64,000 nucleotides of DNA from Streptacidiphilus sp. ASG 303 (lineage in GTDB: Bacteria > Actinomycetota > Actinomycetes > Streptomycetales > Streptomycetaceae): contig NZ_JAJLRA010000007.1 of the NCBI RefSeq assembly GCF_020991365.1, positions 124,001-188,000 of the forward strand, read 5' to 3'. A program made the position numbers and the translations under genes. The notes beneath the pieces are model-generated. The model ran no database searches. It was not told the origin of the DNA and saw nothing but the letters and a program-made list of their open reading frames with translations. This document shows, piece after piece, positions 5,322 to 6,762 of this stretch (positions are counted from its first letter, which is position 1; each line of letters starts with the position of its first letter).

Positions 5322-6055
5322 AGCTTCCCTCCCCGGGTGCCGCGGCGGGCGGGGCAGATCAGGGTGGAGAGGTACGGCTGCGGGCCGGAGCCGAGCTCGG
5401 CGGCCGGGCGGATCGACTCGCCCGGCAGTCCGAGCGAGGACCCCCACACGGCGCCGTCCGTGCGCCCGGTCTCCCGCAGCACCGCCGCCACCTCGTCCGC
5501 GACCCGGCCGAACTTGTAGGCCACCACCGTGCCGGTCCCCGCCAGGGCCTGCCGCAGCACGGCGGCGCCCGCGGTGACCGGCACCAGCGTCAGCGGCTCG
5601 GCCCCCTCGGCCAGGACGGTGCCGCTGCGCGCGGCGAGGTCCTGCATGGCGGTGATCCCGGGGACGGTCTCCACGACCGTGCCGGGCACGGCCTGCCGCA
5701 CCGTCAGGGCCAGGTAGGTGAAGGTGGAGTAGACGCCGGGGTCGCCGAGGGTGGCGAAGGCGACGGTGCCGCCGTCGCCGGCCGCGCGCAGCAGGGCGGC
5801 GACGCGCTCCCCGGCGGCGTCCCAGGCCGCCTCGCGGCGGGCGCGGTCCTCGCGCTCGTTCAGGGCGAAGACCACCCGGACGACCTTCTCCGGGCCGGTG
5901 TGGTGGAGCACGGTGGCCTCGGCGCGGCCCGCGCCGCCGCCGTCCATGACCGGCACCACCACGTACCGGGCCTCGCGCAGCACGCGCACGCCCTTGACGG
6001 TGACCAGCTCCGGGTCGCCCGGCCCCATGCCCACCCCGACCAGGCGGGGGCTCAC
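5318..6055 (-). CDS. cobI: CobI, precorrin-2 C20-methyltransferase
   Basis: This 245-aa enzyme is first in the operon. It transfers methyl from SAM to C20 of precorrin-2. LVGVGMGPGDPELVTVKGVR is the family opening, followed by FATLGDPGVYSTFTYL, VPGITAMQDLAARSG and YKFGRVADEV. The only in-frame initiator before an upstream stop is the GTG at 6055. No Shine-Dalgarno precedes it. The GTG instead overlaps the stop (GTGA) of a 43-codon leader ORF that does have one, so translation is probably coupled. The downstream cobM start overlaps the cobI stop. Confidence 0.95.
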   Translation of the reverse strand: MSPRLVGVGMGPGDPELVTVKGVRVLREARYVVVPVMDGGGAGRAEATVLHHTGPEKVVRVVFALNEREDRARREAAWDAAGERVAALLRAAGDGGTVAFATLGDPGVYSTFTYLALTVRQAVPGTVVETVPGITAMQDLAARSGTVLAEGAEPLTLVPVTAGAAVLRQALAGTGTVVAYKFGRVADEVAAVLRETGRTDGAVWGSSLGLPGESIRPAAELGSGPQPYLSTLICPARRGTRGGKL

Positions 6056-6183
6056 CGGCGCGGGCCGACGGGGGAGGGGGCGGCGGGCCGCCGTGCCGCG
6101 GGGAGGTGCCCCGCGGGGAGGGGGGAGCCCGGGGTGCGTCCGGGCGCGGGGGGCCGCTGCGCGGCGGCATGCGGAACACGCAT
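6052..6183 (-). CDS. Leader ORF between cobalamin riboswitch and cobI (43 codons)
   Basis: The ATG at 6183 lies 6 bases after GTGAGGAC, the only good Shine-Dalgarno sequence between the riboswitch and cobI. The ORF encodes a Pro/Ala/Arg-rich 43-residue peptide starting MRVPHAAAQRPP, with no recognisable domain, and its TGA overlaps the cobI GTG as GTGA. The same layout recurs before cobD. I infer that ribosomes loaded here are handed to cobI and that the riboswitch controls this loading. The peptide itself need not have a function. A chance ORF in GC-rich DNA remains possible. Confidence 0.45.
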   Translation of the reverse strand: MRVPHAAAQRPPAPGRTPGSPLPAGHLPAARRPAAPSPVGPRR

Positions 6184-6189
6184 GGCGGA

Positions 6190-6214
6190 GTCCTCACTCG
6201 GGGTCCTCGCCCCG
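6190..6214 (-). promoter_or_regulatory. Expression platform of riboswitch 1: hairpin plus Shine-Dalgarno
   Basis: On the minus strand a small hairpin (CGGGG, loop CGAGGA, CCCCG; 6199-6214) directly precedes AGTGAGGAC (6190-6198). The same stem with a one-base loop change precedes the same GTGAGGAC in the cobD leader. It probably links B12 binding to access of this ribosome site; I did not model the alternative pairing. Confidence 0.5.
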
Positions 6215-6221
6215 GTCGACG

Positions 6222-6412
6222 TGACGGCGGCCGGAGTCTCCTGGCTCCCGGATCGACGCACCCCCGGGCCTTCCAGCCGCGCGTTCGCGGCCGTGGCCGG
6301 CTCCCGCGGACGGACCGCGGGGTCGGGGGCACTCCCCGGTGACAGTGGCGGGACCGCGCCGGATTCGCACCGGACTTCCTCGTCATTGCCGCCGTGTGTG
6401 GCCCGGGAATCC
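6222..6412 (-). ncRNA. Cobalamin riboswitch 1 (cobI operon leader)
   Basis: The minus strand shows the cobalamin-aptamer landmarks in order: GGTGCGAATCCGG, the GCGGTCCCGCCACTGTCACC box (B12 box within it at 6338-6349) and, at the 3' side, GAGCCAGGAGACT (6235-6247). Binding of adenosylcobalamin is expected to shut off the cobI-cobM-cobL-cbiG/cobJ-cbiX operon. The ends are approximate. Confidence 0.93.
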
Positions 6413-6762
6413 CATCACGCCCCGCCCGCCCGGTCAACAGCGCCCCCGCCGCCCGCACCGCGGCCCGCCGCGCCGCCCGGCCGGGCGCGTGACGTGCGGC
6501 ACACCGGGGCCCGCCGGGCGGGGGCGCCCGCGATCCGCACCGGGGCCGCCGGGCGGCGCGGAAGCCCAGCGTGCGCGGGGTCCCGGGGGTGCGGGGGGTT
6601 GACGGGCGGTTGGGCCGCACGGGTGAATCCGGTAACCCGTCCGGGTGTCCCGTTCCTCCCGGTCGGAACCCGGATGCCCCCTCGGGCGTCCTCTCCTCAG
6701 GCGCGGCCCCGAACCGGTACGTCGAAGGACGGCGGGGGCCTCCGCCGGAAGGGCCTGTGGGG

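Follow-up and report, generated by a model that had tools for sequence, protein, structure and literature searches.

A cobalamin riboswitch that may act on cobI through a short upstream reading frame in Streptacidiphilus, and related leaders of cobD and cobN

The cobI and cobD leaders of the window

The DNA analysed here (the window) is a stretch of 64,000 nucleotides from Streptacidiphilus sp. ASG 303 (contig NZ_JAJLRA010000007.1, positions 124,001 to 188,000). Its minus strand carries cobI behind a cobalamin riboswitch, and between the two lies a short open reading frame (the uORF) which has its own Shine-Dalgarno sequence (SD) and ends in the start codon of the gene (Table 1). This architecture of riboswitch, hairpin, SD, ATG, 43-codon ORF and GTGA overlap had been described in an original prediction made from the letters of the DNA, and both its coordinates and its details were found to be right.

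Table 1. Positions of the features belonging to the two cobalamin riboswitch leaders of the window
Feature	Position	Strand	Score or remark
Cobalamin riboswitch aptamer (RF00174)	6380-6235	-	56.1 bits, E 3.1e-11, gathering score 31.5
B12 box GCCAGGAGAC of the cobI-side aptamer	6245-6236	-	
Hairpin CGGGG-CGAGGA-CCCCG	6214-6199	-	abuts the SD
SD GTGAGGAC of the cobI uORF	6197-6190	-	6 nt before the ATG at 6183; duplex -7.8 kcal/mol
Inverted repeat CATGCG-TGTTC-CGCATG	6184-6168	-	perfect
cobI uORF, 43 codons, peptide MRVPHAAAQRPPAPGRTPGSPLPAGHLPAARRPAAPSPVGPRR	6183-6052	-	TGA at 6054-6052
GTGA stop/start overlap	6055-6052	-	uORF TGA and cobI GTG (6055-6053)
cobI, precorrin-2 C20-methyltransferase, 245 aa	6055-5318	-	TIGR01467 219.9 bits, cut-off 163.25
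Second cobalamin riboswitch aptamer	18860-18733	-	70.8 bits, E 1.9e-15, gathering 31.5
Hairpin of the second leader, CGGGG-CGCGGA-CCCCG	18711-18696	-	
SD GTGAGGAC of the second uORF	18694-18687	-	-7.8 kcal/mol
Second uORF, 18 codons, peptide MQAAPPPLPPKPTSARLG	18677-18621	-	
cobD/cbiB, adenosylcobinamide-phosphate synthase, 316 aa	18615-17665	-	NF002276 425.1 bits, cut-off 381

The calculated duplex energy with the anti-SD is -7.8 kcal/mol at the uORF start and -1.7 kcal/mol at the GTG of cobI. The latter is weaker than the median of random intragenic positions (-3.75 kcal/mol), and cobI thus is without a ribosome site of its own, as had been proposed. An in-frame ATG at codon 10 of cobI scores -8.2, and it is judged an unlikely start because it sits inside a GVGMGPG stretch near the N-terminus of the protein. 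The claim that the only good SD behind the riboswitch is that of the uORF ATG holds in so far as this start is a strong one, but two GTGs at -14 and +4 relative to the ATG score well too (-7.2, within the SD itself, and -7.8). The frames they open are 487 and 481 codons long and both lie in the third reading frame; I take them to have arisen by chance in GC-rich sequence.

The start codon of the uORF lies inside a perfect inverted repeat which is kept in both congeners. The conserved start of the peptide, MRxPHAAA, may be due to this repeat, which could also tune initiation.

When the leader was shuffled and the frame left free, 33% of the draws gave a stop in the GTGA position, and this figure is high because cobI starts with GTGAGC and DNA so rich in GC has few stops. 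The overlap in the window was therefore rejected as evidence when taken alone, and since a single overlap is not beyond chance a comparison across relatives was used. The uORF could be incidental, with cobI initiating independently, at its SD-less GTG or at the ATG of codon 10, and the riboswitch acting on transcription or on mRNA stability. That the overlap arises by chance about once in three and that the codon-10 ATG scores so well both speak for this explanation; against it, no intrinsic terminator-like site was found between 5900 and 6600 of the window.

The second riboswitch of the window precedes cobD and follows the same plan as the cobI leader, with hairpin, SD, uORF and adjoining gene. 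Unlike at cobI there is no overlap, the GTG of cobD starting 5 nt past the TGA of the uORF. Both aptamers match positions 46-168 only of the RF00174 model. The genome has five cobalamin riboswitch matches, four of them above the cut-off, and in the three outside the window the gene is, as far as readable by eye, opened without such a uORF.

Related leaders in the family

Leaders were collected with a 22-nt pattern covering hairpin and SD (GGGCGNGGACCCNGAGTGAGGA); leaders with another SD are missed by it. With at most one mismatch the pattern occurs in 205 of 297 genomes of the window's family, where the reversed-pattern control gave one hit seen (in G026). The family of the surveyed leaders is taken to be Streptomycetaceae. 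The final script allowed up to two mismatches, and the loci consist of a large part of the matches listed together with unlisted ones brought in by other searches; duplicates and sites near locus ends were removed before counting. This left 189 distinct sites, of which 162 could be classified by tblastn as leaders of cobD (146) or cobI (16). The remaining 27 are 16 cobN leaders, treated below, and 11 unassigned sites, probably for the most part chance matches. All but one of the 162 cobD and cobI leaders come from the window's family, the exception (L292) being from another family of the class. Eleven of 11 further leaders scanned matched RF00174.

In a cobD leader with another SD (GGAGG, in L128) a uORF can be seen by eye whose end lies 1 nt upstream of a GTG ahead of cobD; some relays are thus missed by the pattern survey. 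Four family genomes (L108, L151, L152 and L154) show a cobalamin riboswitch followed by an ORF of 21-34 codons which stops about 100-140 nt before an mmsA-like gene, presumably coding for methylmalonate-semialdehyde dehydrogenase; this ORF is a uORF of another, uncoupled kind.

An alignment of cobI leaders across Streptomyces had been suggested as a check of conservation. It was rejected as the main test: among the named cobI loci of the best 80 of 484 relatives the module of hairpin, SD and start was present in only two, both Streptacidiphilus, and most of the other 78, by eye, sit behind the end of another gene. The two congeners of the window's species retain the cobI arrangement, their uORFs being 39 and 21 codons long and their junctions GTGA or ATGA. 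As nearly all named cobI loci are without the module, the cobD leaders became the main comparison set.

Two types of leader were found. In 113 of the 162 (103/146 for cobD, 10/16 for cobI) the module opens a uORF, and in the other 49 (43 cobD, 6 cobI) it opens the gene itself. Homologous leaders that have the riboswitch and no relay had been named beforehand as counter-evidence. They do occur, as these 49 direct leaders, and in them the gene itself starts at the retained ATG or GTG; because so many related leaders do without it, the relay is optional and not essential to the switch.

In 109 of the 113 uORF leaders no more than 10 nt separate the stop codon of the uORF from the nearest possible gene start. 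A dinucleotide shuffle gives an expectation of 51, a high figure (0.45 per leader) that reflects the many gene starts with a stop codon in the overlap; it should be noted that the leaders share descent and are not 113 independent cases. As a control the third reading frame was used, where 9 of 122 stops lie within 10 nt of the gene start. The choice of the nearest start is not the source of the proximity, since leaders with a single possible start give 81/85 and the most upstream start gives 102/113. Inspection by hand of the four misses made three of them conform (an alignment artefact in L287, a broken gene frame in L247 and an alternative ATG in L225); in the fourth, L131, the stop-to-start distance is +16. 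The uORFs are from 13 to 48 codons long with junction offsets from -10 to +10, and each of the eight stop-to-start classes that have at least two leaders contains several uORF lengths. The cobI relays have a 4-nt NTGA overlap in nine of ten cases and a 7-nt overlap in the tenth.

These junctions bear on two further explanations. The first is shielding from Rho: ribosomes on the leader would protect the RNA, and when translation of the uORF is lost in the presence of B12 transcription would end before cobI. Rho is invoked for the metE switch by Kipkorir et al. (2024; PMC11260477), and for a different gene, in S. griseus, a cobalamin riboswitch has been proposed to cause premature ending (PMC8914203). 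Shielding, although compatible with coupling, leaves unexplained why the stop should lie within 10 nt of the gene start, and for ppe2 of Mycobacterium tuberculosis a mutant with the stop removed argued against Rho according to the authors (PMC11260477). We regard it as distinctly unlikely. The second is a frameshift or read-through at the junction, giving a fusion protein of uORF and gene. A minor fusion product has been reported for ppe2 (PMC11260477), and one leader, L233, has the N-terminus of a uORF fused in frame to CobD. With offsets that vary over the whole range from -10 to +10 no single slip would serve all junctions, which makes this explanation very improbable.

The SD strengths separate the two kinds of start. 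The median anti-SD energy is -7.7 at uORF starts and likewise -7.7 at direct gene starts, -3.0 at gene starts behind a uORF, and -3.75 in the background; the uORF start is stronger than the gene start in 110 of 111 relay leaders. Two relay rows with more than 20 nt from stop to start are left out of these medians and of the pairwise count. The cobD starts of the +6/+7 class retain an intermediate SD (median -5.5). To judge from these sequences coupling need not be strict in this class, nor in the cobN relays with an SD of their own.

A side observation concerns the ends of the uORFs: 19 of 113 end in VTAV, VTAG, VTAA or TTAV, and 17 of these belong to one genus, g7 (e.g., L126, L141 and L163). 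Such ends may give the +6/+7 class its intermediate SD-like score, and perhaps they aid reinitiation.

The SD-like sequence kept at some relay cobD starts and at the relay cobN starts speaks for an incidental uORF. Against such a uORF stand the proximity of stop and start through many uORF lengths, the stronger SD at the uORF start in nearly every relay leader, and the 49 leaders in which the gene itself uses the module SD. Taken together with the region devoid of a terminator-like site, they make an incidental uORF unlikely.

Peptide, hairpin and spread of the module

Nineteen pairs of similar uORFs differ by 35, 26 and 43 substitutions at codon positions 1, 2 and 3, respectively, and GC3 is 0.79 in the uORFs against 0.945 in the genes. 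The peptides thus look unconstrained, as even codon positions and a low GC3 argue against a selected peptide. This pattern fits a path for ribosomes whose product is irrelevant, and it fits an untranslated spacer equally well; what speaks for translation is therefore that SD, start and stop position are conserved. The peptide of the cobI uORF in the window gave no match in NCBIfam, the sole library searched with it. By eye it contains no run of one amino acid of the kind used by attenuators, beyond a general richness in Pro, Arg and Ala, and with neither a run of regulatory codons nor a terminator-like site in 5900-6600 the leader does not resemble an amino-acid attenuator. The uORFs of the Streptacidiphilus type before cobI (L061, L074 and L198) begin MRCCAP, with two adjacent Cys codons.

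A regulatory or otherwise functional peptide, causing arrest or attenuation, might be suspected since groups of relatives share similar N-termini (MRxPHAAA, MQAAPPRR, MPGT, MRCCAP). The near-equal change at the codon positions, the low GC3, the differing lengths and C-termini and the lack of an NCBIfam match for the window peptide led us to reject it; it is extremely improbable.

The five pairs of the hairpin before the SD form in all 162 leaders; the search pattern itself covers three of these pairs and one additional base. The one varying pair is A-T in 139, G-C in 19 and G-T in 4. The loop is CGCGGA in 154 leaders and CGAGGA in eight. A B12 box (at most two mismatches) is found within 70 nt upstream in 162/162, and an L5-like sequence, GGTCCCGCCACTGT, in 156/162. 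The hairpin of the cobI leader is a putative P13/L13 partner of the aptamer loop L5; the loop CG(A/C)GGA could pair UCC/GGA with L5. The L5-like sequence stays unchanged when the loop varies, and the A/C change is unmatched in it. A kissing loop between hairpin and L5 is plausible but not backed by covariation. As to the structure that would mask the SD, the two window leaders gave conflicting results when folded singly, and a consensus fold of 56 rows added to the hairpin little more than a weak CUC/GAG pairing.

In a quick CobD tree with 142 rows, 99 of them relay and 43 direct, at least 13 changes between the two types of leader are required, six of them forced by well-supported branches. 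In L233, where the uORF start MQAAPPRR is fused in frame to CobD, near relatives have a stop between the two. If the module has direct control of cobD or cobI in one lineage, then in the other it must act through the uORF, and comparison of the leaders suggests that the stop/start junction is the likely way from module to gene in the relay lineages.

At the level of the class, 296 genomes were searched with at most two mismatches, and 44 had a match, where the reversed control matched in 11. Two further families, f13 and f17, have the module before cobN in 16 leaders, 12 direct and four relayed; the identity of cobN rests on a profile for three of the 16 (partial proteins, below the whole-protein cut-off) and on a shared LLSTSDTDL stretch for the rest. 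All four relays (L319-L322) belong to f17; their uORFs, 14 to 41 codons long, each end in GTGA at the start of cobN, and each of these cobN starts also has a strong SD for itself (-8.4 to -10.5). An exact match of the hairpin-SD pattern, L296, occurs in another family of the class (f46); by eye the gene behind it is chelatase-like, and it would add a fourth to the targets of the module.

On balance we lean towards the view that the platform of Streptomycetaceae, and of one or more further families, is a portable module of hairpin, SD and start, which small insertions and deletions would convert from direct control to a uORF relay and back. With the relay the commoner form among cobD leaders it would then be a general actinobacterial design and not an oddity of ppe2 created by gene invasion, and it may set the gain of the switch.

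Proposed mechanism and known systems

The model postulates that in the absence of B12 the SD GTGAGGAC is free and ribosomes initiate on the 43-codon uORF. They would terminate at its TGA, inside the start of cobI, and restart on the overlapping SD-less GTG. When B12 is present the aptamer would fold, the hairpin adjacent to the SD would dock on it, initiation on the uORF would drop, and expression of cobI would drop too. By analogy with the system of Kipkorir et al. the docking would be that of the hairpin loop on L5. Binding of B12, docking, the actual translation of the uORF and termination-reinitiation as the coupling step are what we infer for this locus. Judged from the sequences compared here, we think it probable that the leader is a translational OFF riboswitch which acts on cobI through a uORF relay.

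The original prediction of a riboswitch-gated uORF with cobI coupled to it is thus supported by the comparison, both by the junctions and by the genes that use the module SD themselves, as to mechanism; as to novelty it is not. It held relays of this sort to be seldom described for cobalamin riboswitches, and one had been shown earlier by mutation. The B12 riboswitch of ppe2 in M. tuberculosis controls a uORF (uPPE2), and mutations show that expression needs translation of this uORF, mainly by termination-reinitiation (Kipkorir et al., 2024; PMC11260477). According to this paper ppe2 has no SD and shares AUGA with the uORF; its authors speak of a relay and suggest that ppe2 has invaded the cobQ/U locus. 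A review from 2025 uses the term "translational relay" (PMC12713380).

It is, in our view, easy to assume that a cobalamin riboswitch acts on whichever annotated gene comes next. In 113 of the 162 leaders examined here, what it controls directly appears to be a tiny ORF, and work on regulation, annotation of start sites and engineering of B12 production in relatives of Streptomyces should allow for such a uORF relay. What the relay is for can be tested directly in pairs of species that carry one and the same leader in a direct and in a relayed form.

The systems closest to the cobI leader differ from it in several respects. With ppe2/uPPE2 it has in common the B12 riboswitch, a riboswitch-proximal SD that serves an out-of-frame uORF, a gene without SD, a 4-nt NUGA overlap and a hairpin at the SD, which is L13 at ppe2 and a putative L13 here (PMC11260477), and the ppe2 operon contains genes for B12 synthesis (cobQ/U), a likeness to the cob loci treated here. 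The ppe2 aptamer is of a subclass with GGAA in J3/4, without UCU in J6/3 and with P1-P3 fused compactly. In that system the uORF precedes ppe2, whereas here the relay leads straight into cobI, cobD or cobN; unlike at ppe2 the relays vary in length and overlap and interconvert with direct control. The dependence on the uORF is mutational for ppe2 (PMC11260477) and deduced from comparison here. The pe20 Mbox of M. tuberculosis is likewise described as a translational riboswitch platform which directly controls a small ORF upstream of an operon; it differs in that it is a Mg2+ Mbox, that its uORF is highly conserved and annotated (rv1805A), and that Rho-dependent termination has been shown (PMC12810186). 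A direct translational cobalamin riboswitch, with the same module and no uORF between switch and gene, is represented by the 49 direct leaders themselves.

In S. lividans an RNA-seq supported cobalamin riboswitch transcript lies ahead of cobD-cobQ-cobN, as the second riboswitch here lies before cobD (PMC8079986). The main text of that reannotation has no occurrence of "uORF" or "small ORF", and it mentions leader peptides that serve amino-acid genes (PMC8079986). Full-text literature searches, covering open-licence papers, found no earlier report of the relay for Streptomyces among the matches listed. The relay is thus known in kind, and what is added here is its presence at cobI and cobD in one family and at cobN in another, its being the commoner form among the leaders examined, and the repeated evolutionary change between the direct and the relayed form.
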